Shown piece by piece: positions 3 through 40,460 of a stretch of DNA of 64,000 nt; the stretch's first letter is position 1, and every line of letters starts with the position of its first letter. The notes beneath the pieces were generated by a model. The model was not told the DNA's origin, made no database searches, and saw only the letters and a list, made by a program, of their open reading frames with translations. Source of the DNA: Desulfuromonadaceae bacterium (GTDB taxonomy: Bacteria; Desulfobacterota; Desulfuromonadia; Geobacterales; Pseudopelobacteraceae). The position numbers and the translations under genes were made by a program. The stretch covers positions 1 to 64,000 of the forward strand of contig JAQTZV010000026.1 in assembly GCA_028687585.1 (NCBI GenBank). The letters are read 5' to 3'.

Positions 3-368
3 CTGATCTTCAGGCGTCAGCGGGAGCCGGGTTCCAATCTCCTCTACACCGAGATATCCGATGCAATCAGCCAGGAGATCAACGGCCACTATGCCCGCCT
101 GTTCAATTTTTTCCAGCAGCGCCCGCAGCTGTGCGATCAGCCGCAGTTCCGCGAGGCGATCCTCAACCATCTGCCGCGTCTGGTGCGGGAAGATCCGCAG
201 TACCGTGGGCGTGTCAAGGACCTGCCGGCAAAATACCGGTACGCGATCCTTGCTGCGGAAATTGCTTCGTCTCTCGTCTACTGCGGCGACCGCGAAGCGG
301 ATTTCGAGGAGATGCTCAAGGGGCATTTGACCAGGAACTTTTCCTCTCCGCCTCCGGTCGGGCAGTAA
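3..368 (+). CDS. C-terminal fragment of a large protein, possibly NAD-specific glutamate/amino-acid dehydrogenase (5' end outside window)
   Basis: Open frame 3 from the window edge: ...LIFRRQREPGSNLLYTEISDAISQEINGHYARLFNFFQQRP...YRYAILAAEIASSLVY..., ending TAA 366-368. Family guess from memory of the C-terminal pattern only. Confidence 0.4.
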   Translation: MIFRRQREPGSNLLYTEISDAISQEINGHYARLFNFFQQRPQLCDQPQFREAILNHLPRLVREDPQYRGRVKDLPAKYRYAILAAEIASSLVYCGDREADFEEMLKGHLTRNFSSPPPVGQ

Positions 369-761
369 CCGGCACGCCGCTGTCGCACCGACGCCCATAA
401 AACCGTCATCCGCTCACCCTGACAACAGGAAAAGTGTGTCAACAAAGAAAACCCGTCAGAAAACGCAGAAAATAAATTCAAACTTACTAAAGGATGTCTG
501 TTTCATATCTTTGAAAAGCATACTTTTCTGTGGTGGGATTTCGCCACTACCCAACGCGGGCACAAAGGTGGATTCAGAACGCGCCTCTGGTCTTGACGCA
601 GATTTTTTTGTTCGCCCAGTCCGGCGACTCCCTGCTCCATCGGCATGAAACCTGCACAATCAACATGGAAATTGCTTAAGAAGAACCAACGCCGCGGACG
701 AACGCGTCCATACGTTGGGGGCTCTATCCGACAACGCTCGGATTTCTATTAAAAAGGAGAC

Positions 762-2012
762 ATGCACATGCGACACGTCATCATCGGAAACGGCGGGGCC
801 TCCTTGAGTGCCATTCGCAGCATCCGAGCAAAGGACCGAGACGGCTCGATTACCGTCGTATCCAACGAGGTGCAGGACGCCTACTCTCCTGTACTCACAA
901 CATACTACATCGCAGGCCGGATTCCACGTTCCGGGCTGTTCGTCGCCGATCGCCAATTCTACGAGGAGCACAGAGTACAGACAATTCTGGGTAGTCCTGC
1001 AGTAGCAATCGACACGGCTAAACAGCGAGTAACCCTCGATAATAACCAGAGCGTCTCGTACGACACCCTGCTCATCGCTACGGGCGGCACGCCGGACTCC
1101 ATCGATCACATCGACGAAGACGTACGCCCATTTGTCGCAACCCTCCGCACTATCTCGGACGCCGAGAAGATAATTGCCCTGTCACGCGACGCTCGGCATA
1201 TCGTCGTCGTGGGGGCTGGTCTGGTCAGCCTGCAGGCGCTCAACGCGGTCTACCAACCGGGAGTAGAAATCACCGTTCTTGTGGGAAGTCGTCAACTCCT
1301 GTCGCAGAATGTCGACCCCGACTGTGCTGAGATCGTTCTCAAAAAGATCGCAGCACAGCCTGGAATACGGATCAGTTTCGGGGCCTCAGTGAACCACATC
1401 GAGCGGAAGGGTAACAGGGCTGTTGTAACCATGATGTCTGGAGAACAATTGGCGGCCGACCTAGTGATCGTTGGGAAGGGGATAACTGCTAACACACAAC
1501 TCGCTGACGGGAGCAACATCCATGTAGATAAGGCCATTCTGGTGGACGACTTCCTGATGACCAACATTCCTAACATCTTCGCCGCTGGCGATGTGTGCGA
1601 GGGTAAGAATCGACTGACGGGTATTGTCGGCCCCGTGCCCAACTGGATCAACGCACGGGAGCAGGGAAGAGCGGCAGGATTCAACATGTGTGGGTGTAAG
1701 TTTGAATTCCCCGGATCGGTCCAGGAGAACGTCACCAAGTTGTTCGGCACAGTAATCGCTTCCATCGGCAAGGTCAACAATCTACCCGAAGACACTACGG
1801 TCCTGTCCTACCACGACACGCGACGCGACATCTACCGAAAATGCATGATCGCTCCCAACGATAGGATGATAGGGGCCCTCATCGTCAACGCAGCGACCAA
1901 GGATATCGGCGTCCTTCGTGACATGATTGTTCGCTGCGCCGATATAAAGGGCCTTGAGGGAGCGCTGGCAAAGGGGTCGGTCAATGCAGCCCGGTCTTGC
2001 ATCTCCGCATGA
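762..2012 (+). CDS. FAD/NAD(P)-dependent pyridine nucleotide-disulfide oxidoreductase (AOR-accessory type)
   Basis: N-terminal HVIIGNGGASLSAIRSIR dinucleotide fold, second fold HIVVVGAGLVSLQAL, IFAAGDVCE motif; RBS aaaggag upstream. Confidence 0.85.
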   Translation: MHMRHVIIGNGGASLSAIRSIRAKDRDGSITVVSNEVQDAYSPVLTTYYIAGRIPRSGLFVADRQFYEEHRVQTILGSPAVAIDTAKQRVTLDNNQSVSYDTLLIATGGTPDSIDHIDEDVRPFVATLRTISDAEKIIALSRDARHIVVVGAGLVSLQALNAVYQPGVEITVLVGSRQLLSQNVDPDCAEIVLKKIAAQPGIRISFGASVNHIERKGNRAVVTMMSGEQLAADLVIVGKGITANTQLADGSNIHVDKAILVDDFLMTNIPNIFAAGDVCEGKNRLTGIVGPVPNWINAREQGRAAGFNMCGCKFEFPGSVQENVTKLFGTVIASIGKVNNLPEDTTVLSYHDTRRDIYRKCMIAPNDRMIGALIVNAATKDIGVLRDMIVRCADIKGLEGALAKGSVNAARSCISA

Positions 2013-2120
2013 GCATGGAGGGGCGAGTGTCGACCGACTGCTATCTCGCCCTCCACTGAGAATCGAGTTCACCATTTATCCACAGCGCATCGCGCCGCCA
2101 CTGCGCGAAAGGATATCATC

Positions 2121-2366
2121 ATGACGATAAGCATAAGACTCTTCGCCCTGCTACGGAAGTACTTGCCACGCAACGCAACCGGCAACGAATGCACCGTCGA
2201 AATAGAACCTGGTGATACAGTGTTGGACGTCATCCACTCACTTAACATCCCGGTCAATATTCCGAAAATTATACTGGTAAACGGCCAACATGTCTCCCTC
2301 GACAGCAAAGAGCCGCTAGCCGACGGAGAAATAGTGTCGATCTTCCCACTCATGGCCGGAGGCTGA
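2121..2366 (+). CDS. MoaD/ThiS family sulfur-carrier protein
   Basis: 81 aa beta-grasp-like protein ending in FPLMAGG (C-terminal GG of MoaD/ThiS). Confidence 0.8.
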   Translation: MTISIRLFALLRKYLPRNATGNECTVEIEPGDTVLDVIHSLNIPVNIPKIILVNGQHVSLDSKEPLADGEIVSIFPLMAGG

Positions 2367-2589
2367 CCCAAGGGGAACCGAAGAAGCTTCATGCCGTAGA
2401 AATCAGGTTGAATTTTTTGGGCCGTTCCCCCAACAAACACGGGCAAAGAGACAAAGACCCCTAACTTTTGGAAGTTTGAAAACAGGCAGATTGCCCTGGA
2501 AGGAGACCAGAAGGCTGAAAGCAATGCGCGGAGGCTTCAGAGGTCGTCGGCTTTGGAATTAATAGCCTAGAATAGGCTTACAAAATTCC

Positions 2590-3115
2590 TCAGTCATTGT
2601 ATGCAGATGTAGATGAAATATCGCCCTTTGCGCTAACGCCTGGGACAATCAGATGACCACTGTCTGTCCACTGCTGGTATTGCGCAATTTGTTCATAGGT
2701 ACTGATAATACCACTGAACACCGCTTCGTCTTCCATTTCACCACAAACAAGCAGCATACACTCTTTGATTTTCAGAGATTTCTTCCCAATGATAAAGGAA
2801 TAGAGCTTGTCAATTGCCGCCTTGATCTGTGTAGGGAATGTGAACCAAATAGATTGGCGTGGCAAATACGATTGTATCCGCCTTTGCCAAAAAAAATCTG
2901 TGAGGCTGTAAAATCATCGTCAAAGGAGCAAGCTGTTACTTTGCTGAAGCAAGTGTCGCAGGAATTGCACCCCTTCTGATATTTTTTCTGTCGGCTTCGT
3001 ATTTGACAACTTCATGCCCAGGCGCCTTTGTACCCTTGACAAAGGCGTCTGCCATCAAATCGCTGTTTCCCCCCACGCGGGGACTACCGGTTATAACGAG
3101 AATGTTCTTTTTCAT
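2590..3115 (-). pseudogene. Flavodoxin/NADPH-dependent FMN reductase family, frameshifted
   Basis: Minus strand starts MKKNILVITGSPRVGGNSDLMADAFVKG..., then the frame breaks; CNSCDTCFSK and IWFTFPTQIKAAIDKLYSF lie in other frames of the same strand. Confidence 0.7.
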
Positions 3116-3216
3116 TTCTCATATTTCCTTTCCCGCATATTGAACAATTTGTGCAATTTGTTGCCGAGTTGAGACAACGCTTGGGCTTTTGATCTGTTGC
3201 AGGCTCAATTTCCTGC

Positions 3217-3540
3217 TTATTTTGAGAAAACACTAAGAACAAGCACGCCAGTAACAATGAGTAAAATGCCGAATATATCGAGCAGGCCCAGCTTCTGCCC
3301 CATAAAAATCCAAGCCACCAAGACAATCAAGGCTGTTCCGACCCCTGACCAAATGGCGTAGGCTACGCCAACGGGGATCGTTTTAAGGGTAAGCGACAAA
3401 AAGTAAAAAGCAGAAGCATACCCGAGAACCACTATAATGGAAGGCCAGAGCCTCGTAAAACCGTCTGATGATCTTAGCGCAGAAGTTCCCGAAACCTCAC
3501 TGATGATTGCAGCTCCAAGAAATAACCATTTTTGCATCAA
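3217..3540 (-). CDS. SMR family multidrug efflux transporter (EmrE/QacE-like)
   Basis: 107 aa, four TM segments, WLFLGAAIISEVSGTSALRSSDGFTRLWPS...VAYAIWSGVGTALI. Confidence 0.9.
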   Translation of the reverse strand: MMQKWLFLGAAIISEVSGTSALRSSDGFTRLWPSIIVVLGYASAFYFLSLTLKTIPVGVAYAIWSGVGTALIVLVAWIFMGQKLGLLDIFGILLIVTGVLVLSVFSK

Positions 3541-3593
3541 CTTGATCCTTCGTCATGTATCACTGAAGGTCGCCAAGCGCAAGGTGACCTGTA

Positions 3594-4583
3594 TTAGTTA
3601 CTTGCGTTAACCGGTCCTTTTTCGGAAAAAACAACCGGTACACCTTTCGAACTGAGCACGACGGCAGTCAGAGCCGCGTGGTCCGGTCGAGATGAAAGGC
3701 TGAAAGTGCTGCAATCGTCTGCACTCTGAAGCGAAACCCCGTCCAGCCCCACTGCGAGCAGTCGACCATCGGTCGTCTCCGTAATTCCGGTAATGGAACT
3801 TTTTGTGCCGGAGTTCAACTGTGTCCAATGTTCTCCACCATCCTCGCTACGTAAAATCCTCCCTCTCAGCCCTGCCACGACCAGGGCGCCGCTATTTAGT
3901 GCGACTCCGGTCCACAGGGTCCCGGGACTCCCGGTCGCGATCTCTTTCCAGGTCTGCCCGTCGTCTTTTGACTTGAGCACGGTACCCCGCTCGGCCGCTA
4001 TGAAAAGGTCTCCGTTTTTGTTAGAGAACAAGGCAAACAGGTTCTTGTCGGCTTTCTTTCTGTCCGGTGGAATCGGCAGCTTCACTTCCTCCCAGGAGTT
4101 GCCACCGTTGGTGGTTTTGAGCAGCAGCCCCCACAGACCCCCGGTGAAACCGAGTTTGCTGTCTTTGAACCAGACCGTGAACAACGGCCGATCTGAATCC
4201 AGATCGTCCCGCTGCATGGTCCAAATCTCCCCGCCGTCCACAGTATGGAGTACTACACCCAAGTGGCCGACCGCCCACCCCTCCTTATCGCCAACAAAGC
4301 ATACCGAGTTCAGAGTGGCACGGGTCGGCACCGCTTTGGCTTGCCGGAACGATTTCCCTTGGTCGTCGGAAAGCAGGACAACGCCATGCTTCCCGACTGC
4401 AACGATACGTTGCCCTGCTTGCGTGGCACCCAGCATTGTAGCCTTGAGAGCGCCTGGAAACACCAATGCCTGCCGTTGTTTGAAACCGGATGAGTCCACA
4501 GGCTGCTGTGCGTAGACCGACAAGGGCAAGAGAAGCGACAACAACACAATGCACACAAATGAATTAGCATTTCTATTCATCAT
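3594..4583 (-). CDS. YCF48-like beta-propeller protein, secreted
   Basis: Signal peptide MNRNANSFVCIVLLSLLLPLSVYAQQ; repeated GWAVGHLGVVLHTVDGGEIW / LLKTTNGGNSWEEV / ILRSEDGGEHWTQL blades. Start placed at 4583 rather than the longer ORF. Confidence 0.85.
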   Translation of the reverse strand: MMNRNANSFVCIVLLSLLLPLSVYAQQPVDSSGFKQRQALVFPGALKATMLGATQAGQRIVAVGKHGVVLLSDDQGKSFRQAKAVPTRATLNSVCFVGDKEGWAVGHLGVVLHTVDGGEIWTMQRDDLDSDRPLFTVWFKDSKLGFTGGLWGLLLKTTNGGNSWEEVKLPIPPDRKKADKNLFALFSNKNGDLFIAAERGTVLKSKDDGQTWKEIATGSPGTLWTGVALNSGALVVAGLRGRILRSEDGGEHWTQLNSGTKSSITGITETTDGRLLAVGLDGVSLQSADDCSTFSLSSRPDHAALTAVVLSSKGVPVVFSEKGPVNASN

Positions 4584-4987
4584 TTCACCACCATTACAGG
4601 GCATTCGGCATCGTGGAGAATAACATTGCTTACTGATCCAAACACCAGGCGCTTCGCAATGCCATGCCCACGACATCCGGTAATGATCAAGTCAGCATGC
4701 TCCTTTAGGGCTTTCTGCAAAATTTGAAGTTTAGGATCACCAACCAGAATCTCAGTCCGGACGGAGAATCCCGATGACTCAACAACCTTACGGACACGCG
4801 TCAAAGTCACTTCCGCTTGTTGCACATCCTCCGGATCCGCTTCCACTGGTTCGCCTTCGGCGTCCAGCGCTGTTCCGTTCAGTACCATGACGATCACCAC
4901 CTCTGGCTGAGCAGCGGATAACCAACCAAGTGTGTGCAACGCACGTTGGGAAGGCCCCGAATCATCGTAAGCTAAAATAATTTTCAT
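4580..4987 (-). CDS. Universal stress protein (UspA family)
   Basis: MKIILAYDDSGPSQRAL...LIITGCRGHGIAKRLVFGSVSNVILHDAECPVMVVK; ATGA overlap with the downstream gene. Confidence 0.93.
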   Translation of the reverse strand: MKIILAYDDSGPSQRALHTLGWLSAAQPEVVIVMVLNGTALDAEGEPVEADPEDVQQAEVTLTRVRKVVESSGFSVRTEILVGDPKLQILQKALKEHADLIITGCRGHGIAKRLVFGSVSNVILHDAECPVMVVK

Positions 4988-11557: not shown

Positions 11558-12403
11558 ATGACAGATTTAAGACGCAGAATGTTGGAAGATTTACAGCTTG
11601 CCGGGTATTCGCCCAAAACCATCAAAAGCTACATCTACACCGTACGGGATCTGGCGAAACATTATCACCGTTCCCCGGACCTGCTTACCGACGAGGAAGT
11701 ACGGCAGTTCTTCCTGCATCTGATCAACGAGCGCAAACTCTCCAAAAGTTCCATTACCATCTATCTCTGCGGCATCAAGTACTTTTTTGAAACCACCCTG
11801 AAAAAGAAGCTGCATATTCTCGACATCGTCAGGCCCAGACCCTCAAAGCGACTTCCGGTGGTGATGTCACAGGATGAAGTCAGAACCGTTTTGAAGCTGG
11901 TTAAACGTCCGCACTACCGGATGGCGCTCACCATCATCTATGCCTGCGGATTGCACATTTCCGAAGGGGTGCGGCTTACAACCAGCGACATTGACGGCAA
12001 GAGGAATCTCCTCAGAGTACGCGACGGCAAAGGCGGCAAAGATCGCTATGTGCCGCTGCACAAGTCTGCTCAGGAGCTTCTGCGGGCACACTACCGTGAA
12101 TTTGGCGAGGGTTCGGAGTTTCTCTATCCCCACAAAGAGAGCCACATAAGCATCGACAACCTGCAAATCGCTTTCAGAAAGGCTCTGCGAGCAAGCGGCG
12201 TCAACAAACCTGCCACCGTGCATACCTTGCGCCACTCATACGCCACTTATCTGCTGGAAAACGGCGAGAATCTCAGCACTATCAAAGATATTCTCGGCCA
12301 TAGCAGCATTGTTACCACCGACATCTATACCCATGTGACCGAGAAGACTACCACACGCCTCCGAATCAGCCTCGACGGGATGCTGACCGGCTTTCAACCA
12401 TGA
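11558..12403 (+). CDS. Tyrosine recombinase/integrase associated with IS91 transposase
   Basis: HTLRHSYATYLLENG...LGHSSIVTTDIYTHV boxes; SAM-like N-terminal domain. Confidence 0.92.
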   Translation: MTDLRRRMLEDLQLAGYSPKTIKSYIYTVRDLAKHYHRSPDLLTDEEVRQFFLHLINERKLSKSSITIYLCGIKYFFETTLKKKLHILDIVRPRPSKRLPVVMSQDEVRTVLKLVKRPHYRMALTIIYACGLHISEGVRLTTSDIDGKRNLLRVRDGKGGKDRYVPLHKSAQELLRAHYREFGEGSEFLYPHKESHISIDNLQIAFRKALRASGVNKPATVHTLRHSYATYLLENGENLSTIKDILGHSSIVTTDIYTHVTEKTTTRLRISLDGMLTGFQP

Positions 12404-13500
12404 GCGGCCTTGCCGGGATCGTAGCCAAGCACGGCAAGGAATATCTGGACAAGTTCGGTGACCGGATGCTGCCGAGTCACAAACGGGCGCTTGGCGACAT
12501 ACTCGCGTGCCGCACCGAAGCCATGGGAGGAAATCTGTGTGAATGCGATGAGTGCGGGCATCAGCATTACGCCTATCACTCCTGCAAGAACCGCAGTTGT
12601 CCTACCTGCCATAGCAGCGACACAAAGAAGTGGCTGGCAAAGAGAGAGGCTGAGCTATTGCCGATCCGCTACTTCCATATGGTTTTCACCATCCCGTCGG
12701 AACTGCGGGACATTGTGCGCGGCAATCAGAAGCTGCTCTACTCCGTCCTTACTCGGGCCGCCGTCGATACCCTGCAAAAGATCGGCCTCGATCCCAAATT
12801 CGTCGGTGGCCAGTTGAGCATGATGACCGTGCTTCATACCTGGACTCGCGCCTTGGAGTTCCACCCCCATGTACATATGCTCGTATCTGGCGGCGGACTG
12901 GACAAGGATGGTGTCTGGCGCTGTGCCAGAAAAAAGTTCCTGGTGCCGGTACAAGCTCTGTCTGCAATGTTCCGCGCCAGGTTCATGAAGCTGGCCAGAA
13001 AAGCGCTGCCAGGAGAAACCTTCTCCAAGGAGGTCTGGAACAAGGAATGGGTGGTGTTCTGTAAACCGACCTTTAACCGGGCCAGGAAGGTGCTGCGCTA
13101 TCTGGGGCGTTACGTCCACCGCATCGCCATCACCAATGATCGTATCCTGGCTACAAAAGACGGCACTGTCACGTTCCGTTATCAGGAGTCCAAAAGCGGC
13201 ACATGGAAGACCATGCCTCTGAAGGGTGAGGAATTTCTACGCCGCTATCTGCAACGTGTACTTCCCCAAGGGTTTCATAAGGTGCGTTACTACGGGCTGC
13301 TCAGCCCGGCCAACCGGGTGGTTCTGAAGAGAGTGCAACTGCTACTGGCAGAGTGGCAAAAGAACAAGGAAGTGGAGAAGCAGGAAGCGCCGGAAACCAC
13401 CTCCAGGAATATCTGCCCCTGCTGCAAAGGAGGGATGATGCTGGCAATATCGCGGCTGCCGAGAAAGCCGCGTAGCCCGCCGGATGGGATCATGGCGTAA
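12400..13500 (+). CDS. IS91 family transposase
   Basis: N-terminal zinc-binding CDECGHQHYAYHSCKNRSCPTCHS; HUH motif FHPHVHMLVSGGG; YLGRYVHRIAITNDRI. Confidence 0.95.
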   Translation: MSGLAGIVAKHGKEYLDKFGDRMLPSHKRALGDILACRTEAMGGNLCECDECGHQHYAYHSCKNRSCPTCHSSDTKKWLAKREAELLPIRYFHMVFTIPSELRDIVRGNQKLLYSVLTRAAVDTLQKIGLDPKFVGGQLSMMTVLHTWTRALEFHPHVHMLVSGGGLDKDGVWRCARKKFLVPVQALSAMFRARFMKLARKALPGETFSKEVWNKEWVVFCKPTFNRARKVLRYLGRYVHRIAITNDRILATKDGTVTFRYQESKSGTWKTMPLKGEEFLRRYLQRVLPQGFHKVRYYGLLSPANRVVLKRVQLLLAEWQKNKEVEKQEAPETTSRNICPCCKGGMMLAISRLPRKPRSPPDGIMA

Positions 13501-16441: not shown

Positions 16442-17064
16442 CCCAAAAACCGTTTTTAGGATAAACCACTGAAGTACAGCCCGCAATAAATAAGTTCCTG
16501 GGACTGTAGAGAATTGAGGCCTGTATGGATCAGGATAGCGCTGGAGAAGTATCCATCGCCGAGGTACAGAAAAGTAATTAACAGCTTTTTGAGGTTGTAG
16601 CCTCGGGGTAGACATAAAAAGCCCCTCAAGTCCCCTTGGGCGTCCCCGGTCATGGAGACTTTTTTTGCCCAAACCCAAAAAGTACAGAAGGGAGAAATTT
16701 TCATTGCCTGGTGTCATCCACGTCGTAGTAGGTGCTTTGCTCATTAAGCTCAAGGCACTGTCGGCACTGGACACAGTCTTGGCAGCATCAACCAAGGTCG
16801 TAATTGCCTGATCACAGCAATGAGCATGCTCATTTTCTGAAAGACAGCATAGACAAATAAGGGTTTTCTAAAAGCTGAGTCTGCTTCCGCAGGTCATCAT
16901 TCTGTTTTTTAGTTGGTATTCCGGCGAAGCCGACTGATGGAGGAGATGCCGCCCTCCCCGGTGGAAAATTGATATGTAATGTGAATGATTCTGCCCCGTA
17001 AAACGGCTGGAGTGAGCCTCATTGTTGGTGAGCTTTCCAGGTTGCCCTGCTGGGTGGGACTGGG

Positions 17065-17134
17065 GTCAACAGGGGGTGCTATCCCACCGCTTGGACTGTT
17101 GACTTGAGGGGCAATGCCGGGATGGCGGCATTGC
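17065..17134 (+). ncRNA. Two-hairpin motif with complementary loops, copy A
   Basis: GTCAACAG..CTGTTGAC, then GCAATGCCG-GGATGG-CGGCATTGC; loop CTATCC can pair with GGATGG. Confidence 0.5.
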
Positions 17135-17758
17135 TCTTTGAATCGTGGGGACGAAGAATTGATGGTGGTGAACCGTCCGCGTGCATGTACAGGCGACTTG
17201 ACCGTACCACCGGAATCAGTCTTGGCCCAAGTGAACGCTGGGGGCGGTGCTGCGTGGCTGATTGGTATGCGTTCTTTCCAAAGGCAACTTCGTTCCCACG
17301 ATTGAGAGAGTAATAAGAATCATCCCATATGCTCCGGGGAACGCGGTTGGGTTTATCCCATTACTGATCCCGATTTTGAAGGCTGCTGGGTGAGCCGTGC
17401 AGGGTGTTCTAACTGTGATCCCCTCCATGCGCGATTGGAGCGCGGCGGATCGGGAGAATTGCACCCCTGCGCGGCACAAAAAAGATGAAGGCTATTTCGA
17501 CGATGTGTCTGAGTTCAGAATTCTGTTCCGGGACCCAGGATGCCTCTTGCCTCCAGAACCCCGCTCCCACTATTGGACGCCTACGTGTAGGCCAGCAGTG
17601 CGTAGCCACGAAAGAGTCGCTAACCTCTCCGTGTGCATCTGGGGAGTGTCATCAGGAAGCCCGCATGCGAGGGCATGGTGTTCGGCGGCTCCGATGCGGC
17701 GGAGTCCAGAGCCGTCACCGTAGTACAATAACACCATACGCATCCTGATGGCATGTTG

Positions 17759-17872
17759 GGAGAAGTAACTGAGAACTGGAAAGTCGCCATGGCCGGTTGG
17801 ACAGTAGGCGCGTAAGCGTTGAGTGCCCTATGTGGGGAAGATGGCGTCCCACCAGTTGCTTCTCCTTTTTTT
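17759..17872 (+). terminator. Long nested hairpin followed by T7 tract
   Basis: GGAGAAG...CTTCTCC-TTTTTTT with two further nested perfect stems. Confidence 0.5.
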
Positions 17873-18001
17873 CTTGAGGATTGGAATTTGAAAAGGCAGG
17901 CATGGATTGAGAAACCGGAGCGCTTACAGGAGTTATATCCGGCGGATCGCAACGCGTATCGCCTGTACGATGCTCACGTTGACATTACCATGTTTGCCCT
18001 A

Positions 18002-18105: not shown

Positions 18106-18237
18106 CTTTCAGGATTAATGGGATGATGCAGGAGAATCGCTATGGCCAGTCAATGTGTGACGACGTTCCTGCAGCCCTTCAGATTTTGTGGCTATGTTGT
18201 TGGTAGTCAGAATCAAGAATGTTTATCGGAGTTCAGC

Positions 18238-18966
18238 ATGAAAACAGACCGCTCTTATCTATCCAAGCCATTTAGAATACTGCTCCTGCTGGTTTGTTTC
18301 TCAGCATTGCCGTTACAAGCATTTGCCGCCCAGGTAGAAAAGTGCAACTACGTCGAGTTTCAACGCCTGCCGCTATTCGAGCACATGCATGGCATCAATG
18401 GCTCTCTCATTATCAAGCGAGATCGGCGCTTTATGTATGAATATTCTGCCGGGCTGGATACACCGGAGACAACATGCAATGCCCGTCTCTACCTCATGGA
18501 CAAAAACAACAAGATAGTCTTTTCGAAAAAGCTTGAAAAACCAATCGCCTCGCTGGAAACAGTTGAACTGCTTGAGCGGCAACCTAAAAGTTTTGCTCTG
18601 GAGGAGGACTATAGCATTGGCTGGGGATCGTACGCCGGACCGATTACCAGCTTCTTTGATGTTGTTAATGGCAAAGTAAAATGGCTTCAAACCCGGCAGA
18701 ATAATGCGAAGAAAATCAAGAAACTTTACGTGTCGTCCAGCCTCAAAACAGGCTGGCAAATTGTGAAAGCGGGAAACAATTTCGATATTCTGGAGGCCGC
18801 ATGCCGTCCTGAATTCAGCATAAGATTAGATGAAGCAGCATTCTCCATCACCTACAGACGCTACCACTACAACGGCACTGAGTGGATCGAGTACAGCCGG
18901 AAGGATAGTGGGTATTGGGATTTTGAAGAATATCCGGACATTGCTCTTTACCCAAAAGCGCAATGA
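18238..18966 (+). CDS. Secreted hypothetical protein
   Basis: Signal peptide MKTDRSYLSKPFRILLLLVCFSALPLQAFAA; start moved from the longer ORF. Confidence 0.7.
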   Translation: MKTDRSYLSKPFRILLLLVCFSALPLQAFAAQVEKCNYVEFQRLPLFEHMHGINGSLIIKRDRRFMYEYSAGLDTPETTCNARLYLMDKNNKIVFSKKLEKPIASLETVELLERQPKSFALEEDYSIGWGSYAGPITSFFDVVNGKVKWLQTRQNNAKKIKKLYVSSSLKTGWQIVKAGNNFDILEAACRPEFSIRLDEAAFSITYRRYHYNGTEWIEYSRKDSGYWDFEEYPDIALYPKAQ

Positions 18967-28430: not shown

Positions 28431-31400
28431 TCAAATACCTAAGCGAGCAGTAACTTCTTCCAGTTTTTGACTTAATTCGGGTGTAAGTCCTTCTTTAATT
28501 TTGCTGACAAGTTCTTTCAATCCATACCACATATAGCTGTGTGAACCAGATTCCCCCAAATAAATAATCAGCTGTGCAACTTCATTGGGATAGCGTTGAG
28601 GTAATTCGTTCTTATCAAGATCACGAAGAAACGATGAATTTCGAATTGTGCCATGTGGCATTTTAGTAGCTAAGGCTACTGCCTCAGGGAATATTGCAGT
28701 CAATCTGACAGTCCAGCCGAGCATTGGTTCGAACTCTGCGGCGCTTATTGGGGCTGGCACACCTTGTAGTCTATTTTCCCAGTATTTTTTTATCCAGCGA
28801 CGCCATAAATCGATCTGGAACTTTTCTTCTGTTCTGTTGAGATATGTTTTAATATTTGAAGCTAGCATAACTCTGGATTCTTCACCTGTTTGTCTGAAAA
28901 ACTCTGGAATCCAGGTGGTCAGTGGAGAGTTCACATAATAAACTAGATATGCCGCTATGAATTCGATAAATCTGTTTCGCCGTTGTTCTTTAAAAACTTG
29001 AAACTTAGTCAGGCTTGCAAAGAAAGTCGGTTCTAATAGCTCGGCAACTTCAGGGTTGAGATGTCCCCAACACATGAAACCATCCCATACTGCCTGGTAA
29101 TCCTGTGACTCTGTATTTTCACTGAACAGAGGAAGTAAGTATTTGACAGTCCATTCGTTATCAGCAGCTAGTAAAAATGGGAACTGACTGGCAATTATGG
29201 ATAGCCCTAAAATACCTGGTAACGACTTATCTTCAACAATATCAGTCAAAGCATTTTGGTATAGTTCATTAAATGAAGACGGTAGAAGTTCCTGTCCTTT
29301 TCGCCATAGCGATAAACCTCCCAAAAAGAACTGAGTTAGAACCCCTGCTGGACGATTTAAAGCTGAAGATAACCAATCACTGCTACTGTCCCTTGTTTCA
29401 GTTCGATCAAGTTTTTGCCAAACTTCGGATGCTATAGCATTTGCGTGCGGCAACAAATCAAGCGCATATGGCCTGCCGCCATTTTCGACCAATGAATTGA
29501 GCGTTTGAGCAATGTCGAGAGCATGATCATGGTACAACTCTCTTCGACTAAGCCATGACAGGATTTTCTCAAGCTGGGTTTTATCTAGCTCTGATGCCTG
29601 CCAAACACGAAAAAGTGGAGCCCATAAATCACTCCCCCAGAGGCCATTAGCTGCCAATGCCTTTGCCAACTCGATTCCCCAGCCAAATTCTTCTTTTGAA
29701 GCATCAGAAATAGCATTAATCAGGCCATATCGATTAGGGCCTGAGAATCGATCTTCTTGAAATCCTATAAGTTCTGGCAACCACTCACCAGCAGGCCTGG
29801 ATAACAACTCCTCTGATGTCCAGGGGCTTCGCGATTCGTAGCTTCCAGTTCTCATCCAACGAGTCATATCGGAATGTTCACGTGATCTGAATTCGGGATG
29901 CTGTGTTTGAATGTCGTCAAAAGCAGATTGAGCCTGCTTGCAGTTTGGATCAGACTCTTTGAGCCATGAAAGCCAATTTAACTTTTTATCGATGGTGAGT
30001 TGATCATGTTCTGGATCTTCATGGTCAGGCCAAGCATAGCTTTTGATTGACTCAATTACAGCATCACGAAGGCCTGCACTTGCTTCTGGATACGTTTTCC
30101 TTACATATATATAATGTTCGTGATGAGACGAGGATTCGTGTAGGTCGGTATGCTTCAGCAGCCAGCCTAGTTTGTCATCGGCTGTAATGTCAGTTCGCAA
30201 CGCTGATGTATGAATAGACAGTCGTCGTAATAATGGTGTTTGAGAAGTAATCAGGCGTTCACACCAGTTGGTAGCTAGCTGAGACCGGTTATTGGTTAGC
30301 CATTCCAGAGAATCACGAGCGGCATCAATGAGAACATCTATTGGCCCCTGATTTCTGTCCTGCTCGTGAGGTTCTATTGCCGATCTATGCCAGTTGTCAG
30401 CATCCCAAAAGTTTTCAGCTGTTTGCCAGGCACGTAAGGTTAAATGTCTATCCTCAAGATGCCGTGTGGCTTTTGATAGTAATTGCTCGGCTATTTCAGC
30501 AAGATTAGGCCTAAGTCCTCTCTCCCAGAGCTCGTTGATGGCGTAATGCTCACTACTTGGCTGTAATTCAACCTTAATGCGAGCTTCATTTCCTTTTCCA
30601 TCGTTATCCCACATGTAATCATGTTTAAGAGAAAGGGTACTTCCTGCCATAGCATCGAAAACTCGCAACAACGGTTGGAGTGAGCCGAGTTTAATGCACC
30701 GTTCACCAAGCCACAGGAGAACATGGTCATCCAGTTTTGACGGTGCAGTTGCTAATAGCATTGAGACCCATTTGCTGAGTATTGTTTCATCAAGTGGGTA
30801 TTCTTCGCCCAACCCAACTTCTCGTCCCAGAAACTCCCAAAAGTCTGCATTCAGCCTCATCCCATGCCCTGCAATGAGCAAGAACATTTTGTTCACACAA
30901 CTAACAGCATAATGTTTTGCCAACCACCATGCTATTTCCCGATCACGATCTGTGAGAGTTGCACTTTCAAAAAGAGGGTCCAGTAAACGTCTTTTATCCA
31001 GCCACAAAAGCCAAGCTGGTGAACGAGCGTGCTCAGTAAAAAAACGCGTTTTAGCAACGTCTTCCAGTGCCAGTAAGATGCTTGTTTCTTCTTCATCGCT
31101 ATATGCCGGCGGCTGGATCGCTATTTCAGCTAATTCTCGTCGCCAGTCCAATAGATTGCGGGACATGAATTCTGTTAGGCGCTGAATTCCTTGATAAAGC
31201 TGGCTGAAATCATTTTTATCGGCTTTCTGATATGTTAAGGGCTTGATACCCAACACATCCCAGCGTTGCAGATCATCGCCTTCATGAGTCAAGGCATACC
31301 GCTTACCGACTTCTGCGACAGGAAGTGCTCGACCAAGGTAATGCATGACAACATCATCATGACTGTAGCCAACAAAGAGAACTGTAAAGTTCCGGAACAC

Positions 31401-31943
31401 ATCAAGGAGGAAACGCCTTGCCCAACCTTCGGTTAGATAGGCTTTACCAAAGTCTTCATCAGTTAGAACCATCTCCTGTGCTCGGTTGACAGCTCCGTGT
31501 AGATGAACGATACCGTAAAAATTGCGGCCCAGCGGAAGTGCCGGCGCACGGAAAACATCAGTTGAATGCCTATTGATGGATTCTGCTGCTTTTTCGAATA
31601 GTAAGTCGAAGTTGGTGGTAACCAAGCGCAGCTTCTCTGGGGTAGGAAAGAGTTTTAGGAGATCACGGTGAAGTTCGGTCGGTTCTAAGCCGACCCTGTT
31701 AAGCCTTGCTGCAGCTCGAGAATGTACATCAACACCGCTATGATGAAGCTTGCCAAGAAAGCGGTCAAATGGCTCATCCGGAGTTTTACCAGTCCCATCT
31801 GCTATGTACGATGCAAGTTCCCAGAAGTCTGGAAGATTTGCTGGTTCGCCCATAGACACACCAGCCCCGGCAAATACTACCAATTTACCTTTTTTCAAGG
31901 CATCAAGCAGGTGCTGTGGAATGTCTATAGAACCGAATCTCAC
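28431..31943 (-). CDS. SIR2-family protein with long C-terminal region (DUF4020-like)
   Basis: VVFAGAGVSMG, RLVTTNFDLLFE, VHLHGAV SIR2 motifs; 1170 aa. Confidence 0.85.
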   Translation of the reverse strand: MRFGSIDIPQHLLDALKKGKLVVFAGAGVSMGEPANLPDFWELASYIADGTGKTPDEPFDRFLGKLHHSGVDVHSRAAARLNRVGLEPTELHRDLLKLFPTPEKLRLVTTNFDLLFEKAAESINRHSTDVFRAPALPLGRNFYGIVHLHGAVNRAQEMVLTDEDFGKAYLTEGWARRFLLDVFRNFTVLFVGYSHDDVVMHYLGRALPVAEVGKRYALTHEGDDLQRWDVLGIKPLTYQKADKNDFSQLYQGIQRLTEFMSRNLLDWRRELAEIAIQPPAYSDEEETSILLALEDVAKTRFFTEHARSPAWLLWLDKRRLLDPLFESATLTDRDREIAWWLAKHYAVSCVNKMFLLIAGHGMRLNADFWEFLGREVGLGEEYPLDETILSKWVSMLLATAPSKLDDHVLLWLGERCIKLGSLQPLLRVFDAMAGSTLSLKHDYMWDNDGKGNEARIKVELQPSSEHYAINELWERGLRPNLAEIAEQLLSKATRHLEDRHLTLRAWQTAENFWDADNWHRSAIEPHEQDRNQGPIDVLIDAARDSLEWLTNNRSQLATNWCERLITSQTPLLRRLSIHTSALRTDITADDKLGWLLKHTDLHESSSHHEHYIYVRKTYPEASAGLRDAVIESIKSYAWPDHEDPEHDQLTIDKKLNWLSWLKESDPNCKQAQSAFDDIQTQHPEFRSREHSDMTRWMRTGSYESRSPWTSEELLSRPAGEWLPELIGFQEDRFSGPNRYGLINAISDASKEEFGWGIELAKALAANGLWGSDLWAPLFRVWQASELDKTQLEKILSWLSRRELYHDHALDIAQTLNSLVENGGRPYALDLLPHANAIASEVWQKLDRTETRDSSSDWLSSALNRPAGVLTQFFLGGLSLWRKGQELLPSSFNELYQNALTDIVEDKSLPGILGLSIIASQFPFLLAADNEWTVKYLLPLFSENTESQDYQAVWDGFMCWGHLNPEVAELLEPTFFASLTKFQVFKEQRRNRFIEFIAAYLVYYVNSPLTTWIPEFFRQTGEESRVMLASNIKTYLNRTEEKFQIDLWRRWIKKYWENRLQGVPAPISAAEFEPMLGWTVRLTAIFPEAVALATKMPHGTIRNSSFLRDLDKNELPQRYPNEVAQLIIYLGESGSHSYMWYGLKELVSKIKEGLTPELSQKLEEVTARLGI

Positions 31944-33016
31944 AGCCTACTCGCTTGATACCAGTACCAGAATGCCTCTTGGTTTATGCTCTTCAGTCGA
32001 TTCAGGCGTTCCCATTCTCCAGTGATCATCAGTTTCCCAAGCTCTTCAATCTTCGGGACTAGTCTGAACGCTTCCATGGATGGTCCTGACTCTCCGTTTG
32101 CAATTAATCGAGCCATCAGCGCAGCTTTTGCGCCTGCAAGTTTTGCCATGTCCAGGGTGAAGTTGTGATCGACTAGATGCGATGTTAACTTTCGCACACC
32201 ATCAACTAATGTTAGTGCTTCCGGCGACTCTTTTACTCCCTTGAGTAGATGCATGTTCAGGCTGAGTGACGCCTGAAGTGTATCTTCCAAGGCATCTGTT
32301 GGTATAAATTTGCCCTCCCTGTATCCGTTTTCCTGCGTGAAAATATTTTTATATACCCGCCGTACTGCTGTCAGATCCTCTGCTAGATTAAATAGCTCTC
32401 CAATATCAAATAATTGTTTGACTATCTGCATAGTATCCGCAGGTTTGCCATTTTTTGGAGCATAAAGTACACCCGTCGTTCTTGGCGCAAAGGCTGTTAG
32501 CTTATCAGCCAACAGGCTATCAACCGTTGGAATATCGACAAATATTTCGCGCCTTATTTCTAAAATACTCGGTGTAATTGGTTTTCTAATCACATCATGT
32601 GGAATATGCTGTTCTTCCACTACATCCAGAAAAACGTATGGATATGGATTGCCGGTAATTAGGGGAGTATAGAAAAACTTGAAATGTCGTCTATTTGGTA
32701 AACCTCGATAGCCTCGTATTTGTTCTTTATAGCCAACGAACGGTGGCACCGTTGCTATTACATCAAGAATACTCTCGAGTTCTTTAGCAGATGCAGAGCT
32801 GAGAATGTCAATATCTATCGATAGCCGACGGACAACCGGTACATGAAGCAGGAGACTTGTGCCACCCTTGAAGACGAACTTTAGATCGCTCTCTGCCAGA
32901 TGTCCTAAGAGAGCGAAGGCATGGAGTGCCCTTTCCAGCAATCCAGGATCAACGCCCTTAATCTCTTTCTTTTTTATTTCCAACCAGTCAGCTGTGAAAC
33001 AAATAGGTGAGATCAT
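31940..33016 (-). CDS. AbiEii/AbiGii-type nucleotidyltransferase toxin family
   Basis: FVFKGGTSLLLHVPVVRRLSIDIDIL motif; VDSLLADKLTAFAPRTTG. Confidence 0.85.
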   Translation of the reverse strand: MISPICFTADWLEIKKKEIKGVDPGLLERALHAFALLGHLAESDLKFVFKGGTSLLLHVPVVRRLSIDIDILSSASAKELESILDVIATVPPFVGYKEQIRGYRGLPNRRHFKFFYTPLITGNPYPYVFLDVVEEQHIPHDVIRKPITPSILEIRREIFVDIPTVDSLLADKLTAFAPRTTGVLYAPKNGKPADTMQIVKQLFDIGELFNLAEDLTAVRRVYKNIFTQENGYREGKFIPTDALEDTLQASLSLNMHLLKGVKESPEALTLVDGVRKLTSHLVDHNFTLDMAKLAGAKAALMARLIANGESGPSMEAFRLVPKIEELGKLMITGEWERLNRLKSINQEAFWYWYQASRL

Positions 33017-33057
33017 ATTTTAACCCATTATCTCCTCAAAAGTTAAAAAGCGGGGAA

Positions 33058-36000
33058 TTAGTGGGACAATTCCGTGCTTTCTATTTTCTCTCTTTTCACC
33101 TCTGAATATCCAAGCAAAGCAGTCAGTTGCAGAAGGCCGGAGCTGAGTACGGTATCTATAATTCTTTGGACTTCAGCAGAGTCCATCAGCTGGAGCCTTG
33201 ATGCTTCGATCTTGAGGTCGACGAGTGCCTTTTCAATTGGTGCAACCTGGTCCTTGCTTTCCGGTTGCTTTTGTATGGAAGGACGCAAGATTACCGTCCT
33301 GTCGCCCGGCCTGATGTAGCGTTCAACTTCGTTCTTGCCAGGGTCAGCCCATGCGTCCCAACCATTCTCTTTCAGTTTTTCGGCTACCGTATTCAGAGTA
33401 TCGCTTTCGGCATAAAGGAAGATCGTTGGTTGGGCAATGAGGTGTTGGGCAAAAGGGTTGAACTGAATAGTGGACCAGCAGCAGAAATCGAGTAGTGGGA
33501 ATTCCTTCTTTACCACCCGGATTATTTTAGCAATCGGCTTGGGATCTAAGCTGACTGGCTTTTCGTGTCGGCTGTACCAGCCTCTTCCGGCATCTGAGAT
33601 GATACCGGATGCCATGGCTTCGCTCATGTATTCCCGAAGAGTGTCGTCGGAAACTTCTATTTCAACATTTGCCAATGCTCGCTTAACAGCTTTAAGGTGG
33701 AAATAGGCACTTAGCTCTTTAATCGCTGGGAGTATTCGAGTGATCAATGATGACTTATTGTCGAGACCTCCTGGCGCTTCTTGAAAGGTGACACGTTGTT
33801 CAATAAGAGAGAGATCTTCTGGGTTAAGGTCGAAAAGCTTATAAACGATTGTATTAATCGTATGTTCAATTTTTGCAAGTTCAGACCCTGCAGCTTTGGC
33901 AGCACTTAAAGCAAGCTCAGATAATTCCGCTTCTACAGAATTATTAATCGCAGGGATAGGAATTGATTCTTGGTTTTGAATTAAAGCTTGAATATATCCA
34001 TTTTGAAGGTCTGTGCAAGTTTGTAGCAAATACCACCATGTAACGTTAGAGTTCAGTATTGCTGCTAAAGATGGCCTTGCATCACCTATGATATAGAGTG
34101 CGTCATTATGATAATGACCTTGTATATCATAACAATATTCGGCTTTGTTCATGAACCGCCCAAGTATAATTTTTGAAGTTTCAAACTGCTCCCAATAGTC
34201 AATTGAATCTTGAAGCTCATACCATTTATATGTGCCAGCTTTACGCCCAAGCCAAGGATGTCCTGATGGCCAGTTTTTCGGTTTTGGTTCAAGATTTTCC
34301 TTGAACTGCAATAAATGACGCTTGATTGCCGGAAAATCGTCGATAACAATTCCCCGCCTCGAAAAAATCAGCCAAAGGTCTTGAGGGTAAGGTCGCCAGC
34401 GTTTGACATCTTTGCCGCGTAGATATGGCTTTAATATTTCCCCAGAACGGGAATCTTCAGCAATCAATTTATCTCGTGTAGAACGATCCACCACAAATGC
34501 TTTATTGTATCCTGTTTTGATCCCATAGAAAAAATGTCCTTTCATGAATTCGCCGAGTGGAGTCCCTTTTGACCGTAGTTTTTCTAAAAGGTTGTGGACG
34601 GTCTCTAGCTCTAATTGCCAGCCATTAGGCGTTAATTCATTTTGGGCTAAACTGAAAGCAGACGAAGTAAATACATCGGTTACTTTGTTTATGACGTCAT
34701 GCAGTTGCCAATTATAAGCTTTAAGATGGTGAACAGTGGTGCATTCTCCTTTGATCCCGATTAAGATAGAAGCATACGCGATTGCCTCAAAAACTGGAGC
34801 ATCTCCGAAATCCAACATTTGTTGGATTACAAGTTGGCTTGAAATAAACTCACGTAACTTTACTCCATATGCTGAACGGAAGTATTTATTGGAGCTTATG
34901 AATGTCAACACCCCTCTATCATTCAGTAAACGGATTGCTTTCTCATAAAAATAGACGAACAAATCTGCTGTACCGGTAAAGCATTCATAGTGTGGTTCTA
35001 GCAGTGGTTTGTAATGTTTGATAACTTCATGTCTGACATAAGGCGGGTTAGCAATGACAATGTCAAACCCGCCCTGCTCAAATACATCTTGGAAAAAGAG
35101 ATGCCATAGAAAATAGGGGCGTTCCGGTTTTTCTTCTAACTCTTGCAATTTCGCCTTTTTCAGCGCGATAGATTTCAACTCCTCCTCAAGGGATACAATT
35201 CTCAGCGCATCTTTTTTAGGCGGTTTCCACCCCTTTACTAGCCCTGCTTTACGTTTGATCTCAGCTTTGCGCAACTGGAGCTCGTCACAGATCTTCTCTT
35301 CCTGAATTTGCAGGTTATAGTCGATGTGATCCAGCACAAACCGGTCAATCTTTCTGTGCAATTCCTGTTTTTCAGATGGATTGGTCTCACCGAAATATCG
35401 GTTAATAAGAGTTTTAATTTCTTTGGCTTTTGCAACGCCTTCATGTGACTGTGAGAATTCAAGCAACTCGCCAGGAAACATCTGCCCTTGGCCTTGCTTT
35501 GAGAACACTTCAACTTTGTAACCTTTTGCTTGATGCAGCTTGTCGAGCGGAATCCCTTCAAACGACTCCAGAAGTGAATCCCCCTGCATAATCTTGTAAT
35601 CCAGGTTCGGGAGCGGGTGGGGTTCTTCTTCATCCACAATTAGTGACAACCAGAAACGGAGCCGGGCAATCTCCACTGCACCTGCATCGATATCAACGCC
35701 ATATATTGAATTCTGAATGATTTTTAGCTTCGTTTCAGCAGGGTCCAGCGTCCAATCGAGAGTCAGTTTGATCCAATATATTTCTTGGAGCAGGCCGATG
35801 GGAAAGGCTCCAGAACCAATGGCGGGATCACATATTTTCAGACGATCGAGCAGTTCTTCGATACGCTTTGCATTCTGGCGTACCCAATTATTCTTGTCTA
35901 TAGCAGAGCCGGCATCCTTGAAGCGGACCAGACTTACGATCTCTTCCCGCTCATCCAAATGCAACTGTAGGTAATGAATCAGACTCTGTTGACACATGTG

Positions 36001-37188
36001 ATGAACGATGGGTTTTGGGGTATAGTAAACGCCTTTGTCCTTGTTATCCTCCAACAGGTTCTCGAAGATGTGCCCCAGCATTTCCGGGTCAATGCCCACT
36101 TCGTGATCGTCCGGGTCGTTCTCGTCGATAGTGAAGTTGTACTGGCCAAAGAATTCCAGCACCTGTTCAAAAAGCGTTGCAGGGAAATCAAGTTTTTCCA
36201 CTGGCAGTGGTTTGTGATCGTTAGGCAACTTCTCATGCTCAAACAGGCCACCGTTTAGGTACGGCACTCGTGTGCCCGTGGCAGGAAACAGGGCGTTGGG
36301 TCGGTTGGGCCGGTTGAGAGCCTCGAAGAAAAGCGGCGCCAGGCGAGTTGAGTAGAACTTTCCTTTGTCAGGACAGGTCAGAAAGAGATTTCGGACAAAG
36401 CTCCGGTCGCCTTCTGTCCAATCGGTGCGGTCGGCGGGGCAACCGAGCCATCCTTTCTTCTGGATAAAGTACAAAAACACCAGCCGTCCCAGTAGCCGTT
36501 TGGCAAAGTCACGTACTGGTTTGTTGGCTTTATCCTGGTCCATTTCATCCACCAGGCGGGGAATAGCAAAGACCTTTTGCGGGGCATCGCCAGACAGTAG
36601 GTGATTGACAAAGGTGGTGTAATGCTCCTTATAGAGAGTGAAAAACTCTTTGTTGAGCTTTTCGACCGAAAATGCTTCGACAACATCGGCAAGAGTTGCA
36701 TTGTCAAGTTTCCCAGCAAGCTGGCTAAGTCGCCGGGCTGCTGTGGTACAGGTCTCATGGGGACCTAACAGGTACGTAAAGCGCTTGGTGGCTGTCTGTC
36801 GTTCGACGAATTCTCCGTCGTCGTTGAACTCAGATTCTTTGGCAGTAAATGTGAAGCGGTAGTCTTCATTTTGGCCGGTGAATATGACAAGTACACCGTG
36901 GTTGGTCTCTTGATCGATGTACTTGGCAACCAGGTTGCGCAGCTCAACCCGGTTGCGCTGAATTTTCTTCTTTGGGGTCAATACGATTTCAAATATCGCC
37001 AGCTTCTTGTCATCGTGTAACCGGACGCTCCCGAGTTCTAGGAAGGATGACACATCCTGATTCTCACAAAGGACGGTATGTGGCTGGGTAAATATGGACA
37101 CATTGGGAAATGTTTCCCGCAGTACCGTTTGCCAGGCTGTACGATCGTATGGTTGCTGCAGCTCATGCTTCAGCTCAATAAGGTTCAT
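33058..37188 (-). CDS. Eco57I-type N6-adenine DNA methyltransferase/restriction-modification protein
   Basis: 1376 aa; motif I DPAIGSGAFPIGLL; motif IV VIANPPYVRHEV; YYTPKPIVHHM. Confidence 0.9.
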   Translation of the reverse strand: MNLIELKHELQQPYDRTAWQTVLRETFPNVSIFTQPHTVLCENQDVSSFLELGSVRLHDDKKLAIFEIVLTPKKKIQRNRVELRNLVAKYIDQETNHGVLVIFTGQNEDYRFTFTAKESEFNDDGEFVERQTATKRFTYLLGPHETCTTAARRLSQLAGKLDNATLADVVEAFSVEKLNKEFFTLYKEHYTTFVNHLLSGDAPQKVFAIPRLVDEMDQDKANKPVRDFAKRLLGRLVFLYFIQKKGWLGCPADRTDWTEGDRSFVRNLFLTCPDKGKFYSTRLAPLFFEALNRPNRPNALFPATGTRVPYLNGGLFEHEKLPNDHKPLPVEKLDFPATLFEQVLEFFGQYNFTIDENDPDDHEVGIDPEMLGHIFENLLEDNKDKGVYYTPKPIVHHMCQQSLIHYLQLHLDEREEIVSLVRFKDAGSAIDKNNWVRQNAKRIEELLDRLKICDPAIGSGAFPIGLLQEIYWIKLTLDWTLDPAETKLKIIQNSIYGVDIDAGAVEIARLRFWLSLIVDEEEPHPLPNLDYKIMQGDSLLESFEGIPLDKLHQAKGYKVEVFSKQGQGQMFPGELLEFSQSHEGVAKAKEIKTLINRYFGETNPSEKQELHRKIDRFVLDHIDYNLQIQEEKICDELQLRKAEIKRKAGLVKGWKPPKKDALRIVSLEEELKSIALKKAKLQELEEKPERPYFLWHLFFQDVFEQGGFDIVIANPPYVRHEVIKHYKPLLEPHYECFTGTADLFVYFYEKAIRLLNDRGVLTFISSNKYFRSAYGVKLREFISSQLVIQQMLDFGDAPVFEAIAYASILIGIKGECTTVHHLKAYNWQLHDVINKVTDVFTSSAFSLAQNELTPNGWQLELETVHNLLEKLRSKGTPLGEFMKGHFFYGIKTGYNKAFVVDRSTRDKLIAEDSRSGEILKPYLRGKDVKRWRPYPQDLWLIFSRRGIVIDDFPAIKRHLLQFKENLEPKPKNWPSGHPWLGRKAGTYKWYELQDSIDYWEQFETSKIILGRFMNKAEYCYDIQGHYHNDALYIIGDARPSLAAILNSNVTWWYLLQTCTDLQNGYIQALIQNQESIPIPAINNSVEAELSELALSAAKAAGSELAKIEHTINTIVYKLFDLNPEDLSLIEQRVTFQEAPGGLDNKSSLITRILPAIKELSAYFHLKAVKRALANVEIEVSDDTLREYMSEAMASGIISDAGRGWYSRHEKPVSLDPKPIAKIIRVVKKEFPLLDFCCWSTIQFNPFAQHLIAQPTIFLYAESDTLNTVAEKLKENGWDAWADPGKNEVERYIRPGDRTVILRPSIQKQPESKDQVAPIEKALVDLKIEASRLQLMDSAEVQRIIDTVLSSGLLQLTALLGYSEVKREKIESTELSH

Positions 37189-40100: not shown

Positions 40101-40460
40101 TTTGGAAACCACATCATCCACAAATTGCACAATTCCTTCTTCAACTTCGCTTGAGTAATGAGCCTCCTGAATGTCGCTCCTTAATGTCTTGCGAAACTCA
40201 TCAACGGCCCGGTCTGAATCTGGATGAAATAACAACCCCTGTTTGCTGTAGTCTGAAATGATAGTATCAACGTTGATCCCGACCAGAATGCGGATGTTCG
40301 GAACATCCTGAAGATATGGGCGAATCGAGAAGTAGCCGGAAGCTCGCAGGAACCCGACCAGGGCATCAAAACATTCGATATCCCTGTTATTTCCAAAAAT
40401 TCCCTTAAATTTATTGAGTAGGGTATTGTCACCAGAATTTGTGAAAAAACGAGTGGACAT
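37185..40460 (-). CDS. PLD-SNF2 helicase fusion
   Basis: N-terminal RLHAKIYIFRPTGYNEHKAGAVITGSSNLTDAG PLD; DVVGLGKTVIAALIARK, VIIDEAHKF, LMQRIGRVNRIG helicase motifs. ORF track starts at 40478; MSTRFF start preferred. Confidence 0.9.
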   Translation of the reverse strand: MSTRFFTNSGDNTLLNKFKGIFGNNRDIECFDALVGFLRASGYFSIRPYLQDVPNIRILVGINVDTIISDYSKQGLLFHPDSDRAVDEFRKTLRSDIQEAHYSSEVEEGIVQFVDDVVSKKLEIRAHPSKRLHAKIYIFRPTGYNEHKAGAVITGSSNLTDAGLGTKETSRNYEFNVLLNSFEDVQFATQEFETLWQEGVLILPKDVSKVKEESYLRSDLTPFELYIKFLTEYFGSAIEFDPNALEDMPEGFMRLSYQGDAVKQGFDLLQKHNGFFLADVVGLGKTVIAALIARKFYFHNGFPEHRSHTLIIVPPTLKDSWEKTLEKFRLDNYKLISNGSLHKLTHPEKYDLVIIDEAHKFRNDTADAYDLLQRICKTPTKHRLKDDTLAKKKVILVSATPLNNRPADIRNLILLFQDGKDSSLEIGNLQRFFNQRIKEYDNALRNLETKDARHEVKRIYDLIREKVVTHLTVRRTRTDLVDAEEYKKDLDEQGIIFPKVEKPHKILYKLEPDLELLYDQTSKILVTDLAYNRYRAIGFLKPEKKLKYQNADRISAQLANIMKTMLIKRLDSSFHAFRESLRRFKEATWAMVSMFENGTIYIAPNLDVSTYILEGREDELVAKIVEKRDTDPTIEICTPDDFRDDFLPSLQKDLEILDALNKQWLRVQNDPKLDEFLVYLRGELFEKRFNQRGKLVVFSEAKDTTDYLKKELAKQGFDKVLCVDSHNRKERMPSVRANFDANLPLDQQVNEFNILLSTEVLAEGVNLHQANVIVNYDTPWNSTRLMQRIGRVNRIGTTAPKIHIYNFYPTAKVDNDLELQKKAIMKLQAFHSALGEDSQIYSEDEEFETFGLFDKDIQEDKDERLTLLMELRRFKRENPEKFRRIRNLPLRARTGRIQADLDSTTVTFIRNKKRDAFYSIGPIDEIEELSFLETARIYRATADEPLQPLHERHHDHVNLAMLDFANKLQAEAVQLKVVDTTQGPNERKALAYLDAFLKLPFISDTEKKRIHAAKHAVKLAKFAKLQRGVNDLFKSQSKTKLTPVTLLDKLMEILDRYPLDNEFENTALPLFDIQATGELKPEIIISESFSS

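Follow-up and report, generated by a model that had tools for sequence, protein, structure and literature searches.

Conserved RNA modules form a reshuffled mosaic beside RNA-repair genes in Geobacterales

In Salmonella, a single operon encodes the Ro60 orthologue (rsr) and Y RNAs along with rtcBA (PMC7790460), and ROT/TROVE proteins have been portrayed as RNP platforms that serve RNA repair and have a tRNA-like partner (PMC7824862). The substrates of bacterial RtcB-type repair systems, and the role of the adjoining non-coding RNAs, are a standing question. Our analysis concerned a window, that is, the whole stretch of 64,000 nucleotides (contig JAQTZV010000026.1) from a Desulfuromonadaceae bacterium, together with related loci from other genomes. 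Like rsr-yrlBA-rtcBA, this type of locus encodes RtcB, a non-coding RNA and a TROVE/Ro60-type protein together on one strand (locus L024, and locus L023 with only an rtcB fragment). It differs in that the RNA is a mosaic of >1 kb instead of Y RNAs of about 100 nt, that no RtcA or RtcR was seen while Thg1, PNK, RlaP and a CCA enzyme are added, and that most carriers, the window's genome among them, have no TROVE protein, which is very divergent where it occurs. Operons that embed a non-coding RNA among RNA-repair genes are already a known type; for the RNA itself no Rfam family matches, and no description of it was found in the open papers searched, which cover only part of the field.

The locus also shares its enzyme set and the logic of its gene order with the RlaP/RtcB/Thg1/PNK/CCA clusters of bacteria and jumbo phages (PMC7824862). 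The array is extra here; most Geobacteraceae copies of such clusters are without it. We know of no non-coding array described with these clusters. Among ornate large RNAs, GOLLD, ROOL and OLE have been described, GOLLD and ROOL near tRNA islands (PMC12286853). The array resembles them in being long, highly structured, without assigned function and on mobile elements, and in loop-loop contacts that are only suggested here, but no sequence or structure match was found, and the present modules are reshuffled and tied to RNA-repair enzymes. The likeness to GOLLD, ROOL and HEARO drawn in the original prediction is thus a loose analogy, as their covariance models were unmatched. In type III toxin-antitoxin RNA arrays of the ToxIN type, structured RNA units lie 5' of an RNase gene. 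Structured RNA units likewise stand before the gene of an RNA enzyme here, but they are mutually unlike, measure 45-190 nt, and precede a ligase, not an RNase.

The original prediction, made from the sequence of the window, had placed a non-coding, densely structured region at 16917-17872 and read it as a single large, ornate RNA or several ncRNAs in a row. The only ORFs there are indeed short and overlapping, and eight of them had no Pfam match above the cut-off, so a protein-coding origin was rejected. The + strand folds at -388.7 kcal/mol compared with -359.6 +/- 7.4 for 20 dinucleotide shuffles (z -3.94), a stronger signal than that of the - strand (z -2.56). The predicted stems were found where they had been placed, except that the one at 17394-17406/17462-17475, called perfect, contains one G-U pair and a bulge. 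No Rfam family reached its gathering score in 16917-17872, and a DNA search of related genomes recovered its fragments, reordered, in other genomes of the genus and family. The limits had been drawn too narrowly: related modules continue as far as the rtcB start codon, at 17892-18001, 20049-20154 and 20315-20663. The reading as RNA was supported, by conserved, covarying modules with neither an Rfam match nor a protein; the RNA-repair context, the reshuffling and the extension past 17872 were absent from the earlier interpretation.

RNA modules, about a dozen in number and each 45-190 nt long, make up the region and its related pieces; those of the window are all on the + strand. Module A (16928..16969) is a short GGAGG..CCTCC hairpin, 95% identical to L024 9698-9739 and also present in L025, L027 and L053. 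It is followed by module B (16994..17055), a hairpin with conserved internal loops for which nine copies were aligned (alignment A3), and by a first copy of module C (17056..17142; 93.5 bits with covariance model R1), made of two hairpins with complementary 6-nt loops, CUAUCC and GGAUGG. Module D (17130..17314, about 185 nt) is closed by a 27-nt helix (17130-17156/17288-17314). Module E (17317..17460), a linker plus hairpins, has partial matches in L025 and L053, its stretch 17422-17450 being common to another genus (L053 9545-9600). Module F (17461..17650; seven copies, alignment A4) has, at about 17561-17643 in its 3' half, a three-way junction that is conserved; its folding energy alone is no better than that of shuffles. 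In the hairpin of module G (17647..17753; z -2.57; partial relative at L025 1466-1492), CATCAGGA at 17650-17657 pairs with TCCTGATG at 17743-17750. Module H (17755..17872; z -2.9) pairs GGAGAAG (17759-17765) with CTTCTCC (17859-17865) and ends in a run of seven T residues (17866-17872). This T-run is not kept in the two related copies (L025 1564-1687 and one in L029); in the window copy, module H with the T-run is a probable terminator.

Beyond it lie module I (17892..18001; 75% match to L025 1910-2018) and two + strand ORFs without assigned family at 18142..18966 and 18963..19961, with no Pfam or NCBIfam match and with 46% and 44% identical proteins, respectively, in the same order in L023. 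Judged from its L023 homologue, the first ORF likely starts at 18238. Module J (20049..20154), a hairpin, matches L023 9498-9601 at 89% and a copy in L059 at 85%. Hairpins of this type recur 3' of repair genes (window 20049-20154 and 21921-21966; L059 196-289; L023 9498-9601), and module J is perhaps a terminator common to repair loci. Next come y1 (20318..20388; z -3.2), a hairpin closed by GCCCGA/TCGGGC with copies in L022 and L024; y2 (20386..20535), with 84-87% matches in L024 and L022; and a second copy of module C (20577..20663; 93.1 bits with R1) directly 5' of rtcB. The rtcB gene (20683..21864, + strand) encodes a 393-aa RNA ligase (PF01139, E 9.4e-58) that is 95% identical in L024, and its start is the ATG at 20683, preceded by TTGGAGG, not the TTG at 20620.

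Covariation supports a conserved RNA structure. The covariance model of module C was built from 10 copies. In an alignment of 16 matches, two of them probably chance, that was fitted to this model and so favours covariation, 94% of cells were paired compared with 76% in shuffles, none of 500 shuffles reached as high a value, and 22 of the 28 pairs showed double changes. Sliding the partners destroyed the signal, and RNAalifold, run on the first, unfitted alignment, returned the same two hairpins with nine pairs changed on both sides. Double changes were seen in 12 pairs of module D, whose covariation score was reached by 0/500 shuffles, and RNAalifold found covarying helices in modules B (the top helix) and F. 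Module v, found in related arrays, spans 140 nt and shows 92% conservation among three genomes from two genera, its gaps being only scattered. Module C also had the lowest z of the folded modules (-5.2), but modules B and F3 were indistinguishable from shuffles in fold energy, so folding energy alone would not settle the case and covariation does; z-scores in small sliding windows were uninformative because such windows cut across modules. Complementarity of the two hairpin loops of module C (CCAUCC/GGAUGG) extends to 11 of 14 copies, among which is a 7-nt version (CCUAUCU/GGAUAGG), and was favoured over exchanged partners (166/5000). The aligned loop columns hold no double changes, and a loop-loop contact within the module is only suggested by the sequences.

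When the pieces from related genomes were compared all against all, the same modules appeared in different orders, those of degenerate pieces being approximate. The window reads A B C D E F G H, then I, two ORFs, J, y1 y2 C and rtcB. Genome G008 (L024) has C, a zinc-ribbon ORF (znr), D B F z v x A w y1 y2 C and rtcB; G021 (L025) has z v x A D E F G H D I t E F and rtcB; and G001 (L028) has t x u D B F u u and rtcB. Two arrays end at rlaP, with the orders B x A B C D C (G018, L027) and B x y2 C D y1 C (G035, L022), while G132 (L053), from another genus, shows C D z v x A E. The order z-v-x-A is kept in three genomes. Many modules (C, D, G, H, y1 and v) are closed by their own helix, which fits independently folding, exchangeable units, and every array at repair genes reads in the direction of the genes. 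Conserved RNA modules that fold independently thus make up the region as a mosaic. On the same strand, small proteins of the CTKCS, MIIGKYF and IEIGAEGG types, which had no Pfam match, recur just 5' of or between modules (L024 6897-8249; L023 3571-5101; L026 8494-9866; L027 6045-7461).

No array in the window or in 10 related loci matched an Rfam family at the gathering score, and in a further scan up to E 5 covering the arrays of the window, L025 and L024 no Y RNA or YrlA match appeared, so this identity was rejected. Skipping-rope RNA (RF02924) was the only low-threshold match in the window array, at 20.6 bits against a gathering score of 36.7 (E 0.12), and was also rejected; the homologous module H of L025 gave no match. 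The motif GGNCCGA is the Ro-binding stem motif of Y RNAs. It had 0 matches in L024, a TROVE-bearing locus and the sole locus scanned.

The carriers found are a few sediment bacteria that all belong to the window's own bacterial family, the named ones being Geobacteraceae or Deltaproteobacteria MAGs. As most carriers are MAGs, assembly errors are possible at single loci, but a general artefact is unlikely since independent assemblies agree. In a wider sample of the phylum, model R1 found only the window's own genome. No plasmid or phage copies of the region were recovered by blastn, and virus contigs held neither a module B pattern match nor a close relative of rtcB or of the TROVE-like protein.

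The genomic link of this RNA to repair genes is well supported. Counting the weak module C matches of G021 and G001, nine Geobacterales genomes carry module C, and in seven of them repair genes lie at the array locus on the same strand. These are rtcB in the window's genome (G000), G008, G001 and G021, and as a fragment only in G023, and rlaP directly 3' of the array in G018 and G035; in G048 and G132 the array has no close repair gene. Among 76 Geobacteraceae genomes, this rtcB subfamily or rlaP was present in 7/9 array genomes compared with 14/67 others (Fisher p 0.0013, a guide only because the genomes are related). The window keeps rtcB alone, and in G008 and G021 RtcB comes with further RNA-end-mending enzymes. 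In G008, rtcB is followed 3' by a gene without assigned family, a PNK-like ATPase, Thg1, RlaP (split over two frames) and a polyA/CCA polymerase, and in G021 by a gene without assigned family, HD-cpYpsA, PNK, Thg1 and the start of rlaP. The rlaP gene appears broken in two carriers, G008 (the two frames, L024 13748-14519) and G035 (an internal TGA, L058). Ten other rtcB or rlaP loci had intergenic gaps of about 150-500 nt and no module. As most rtcB and rlaP loci of the family are without the array, the enzymes do not need it, and the array is an addition and not a constant part. No good sigma-54 promoter site was found 5' of the arrays, and a sigma-70-type scan gave fewer sites than in shuffles.

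In G008 (L024) and G023 (L023), a 516-aa protein heads the cluster upstream of the array. It had no match to the Pfam TROVE model PF05731; its best PDB matches were TROVE chains (E 0.0045), its annotated plasmid matches were TROVE proteins only, and its profile aligned in the N-terminal half with four plasmid TROVE proteins (hhalign E 1.7e-6). The protein contains DLSGSM, comparable to the DxSGSM metal site of the C-terminal vWA domain, and vWA_Ro60 (PF25045) appeared in the L024 copy only, with an E of 0.028 that is below the cut-off. From these similarities we call it a divergent Ro60/TROVE protein. Its AlphaFold model was set aside (pLDDT 34). TROVE is absent from seven of the nine array genomes, the window's included, and thus TROVE binding cannot be general. 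The nearest TROVE relatives are on haloarchaeal plasmids, where 5 to 14 same-strand tRNA genes surround the TROVE/Ro60 gene (loci L112-L115: NZ_CP095398, NZ_CP098520, NZ_CP082287 and NZ_CP096662, about 80-4630). Such a TROVE gene with a tRNA array on a large plasmid may be a natural parallel to the Geobacteraceae locus.

We are largely confident that these arrays are a conserved structured RNA linked to RNA repair. For its function we infer from established knowledge of Ro60-Y RNA and RtcB a role in scaffolding or presentation. Transcription of the modules within the repair operon would yield a single long non-coding RNA or several, and the folded RNA would act as Y RNAs are thought to act with Rsr, bound by the TROVE protein where present and otherwise directly by the repair enzymes. 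It would serve as a scaffold or adaptor that gathers RtcB and the end-mending enzymes or presents damaged RNA to them, and the C copy adjoining the start codon may in addition adjust how the repair gene is translated. Taken whole, a repair-operon ncRNA acting as scaffold or adaptor is the best explanation we can offer, and we hold it with about even confidence; that scaffolding or adapting would be the main job of the RNA is a tentative proposal, somewhat short of an even chance. Should the enzymes be bound by it, the RNA would represent a scaffold of a new kind. Beyond this, the arrays might represent a new large mosaic RNA class whose interchangeable domains assemble with the divergent Ro60/TROVE protein and the repair enzymes into a mobile RNP, domain exchange tuning which damaged RNAs are handled, an idea that we consider rather doubtful. 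In this compact and mobile set, a much larger RNA partner is joined by a divergent Ro60 and the complete suite of end-mending enzymes, and natural reshuffling provides many ready-made variants to compare.

Alternatively, the modules, above all C, could be 5'-UTR elements that regulate rtcB or rlaP upon RNA damage by attenuation or translation control, with no function in trans. Module C ends 19-75 nt before the start codon in five copies, at rtcB (window and L024), znr (L024) and rlaP (L022 and L027), its two hairpins bear the complementary 6-nt loops, and CATTGC is common to its last helix and the first strand of module D where the two abut, so that the two could compete. This reading is unlikely to account for the arrays, as most C copies are followed by module D and not by a gene, two ORFs and a probable terminator separate the window array from rtcB, 2.8 kb further on, and >1 kb of distinct modules far exceeds what a leader needs. 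A second possibility is that the hairpins mimic the targets of ribonuclease toxins and are cut in place of tRNA or rRNA, to be religated by RtcB and its partners. Repair genes do occur in conflict settings (PMC7824862), the window locus lies within a defence-gene region, the modules are diverse and shuffled, and YrlA has been considered a possible competitive inhibitor of a nuclease (PMC7790460). Nevertheless, no tRNA-like domain was found in the arrays (ARAGORN, Rfam tRNA) and no rRNA-like match at any module, and we regard such sacrificial substrates as quite improbable. Either a leader or a decoy would still reveal the signal or damage that these systems answer.

Mobile or recombinational DNA elements, such as folded attC-like sites or MITEs whose hairpins act as single-stranded DNA, are less likely than a leader or a decoy, and we give them little credence. 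The shuffled order, the small ORFs between modules (znr, MIIGKYF and IEIGAEGG families) and the closely similar tyrosine integrases near the window and G035 loci would be expected of them, but about a dozen unlike modules are not one repeated site, their orientation relative to genes is single, they have conserved internal loops and long conserved unpaired stretches, and z-v-x-A is conserved over a long sequence in three genomes. A degraded protein gene or chance structure, suggested by short ORFs on both strands, can practically be dismissed, as there is no Pfam match, gaps in alignments A2-A4 are not multiples of three, and covariation in C and D already contradicts it.

The similarity of the two tyrosine integrases, window 49599-51011 and L022 12435-13772 near the G035 array, was judged by eye from their translations, and suggests that the arrays may travel on related integrative islands. 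A tyrosine recombinase gene followed by a transposase gene, the latter presumably IS91-like, forms an insertion-element pair near the locus (window 11558-13500). On the other side, the defence-gene region spans window 23630-41663 and includes a phospholipase-D-like protein (25228-27666), a Dsr1-like SIR2 protein (28431-31943) and a type IIG/DISARM-like methyltransferase with an AbiEi-like end (33058-37188). The only Rfam match of the window is a group II intron fragment (RF02001, 63.4 bits) at 51305-51432 on the - strand.
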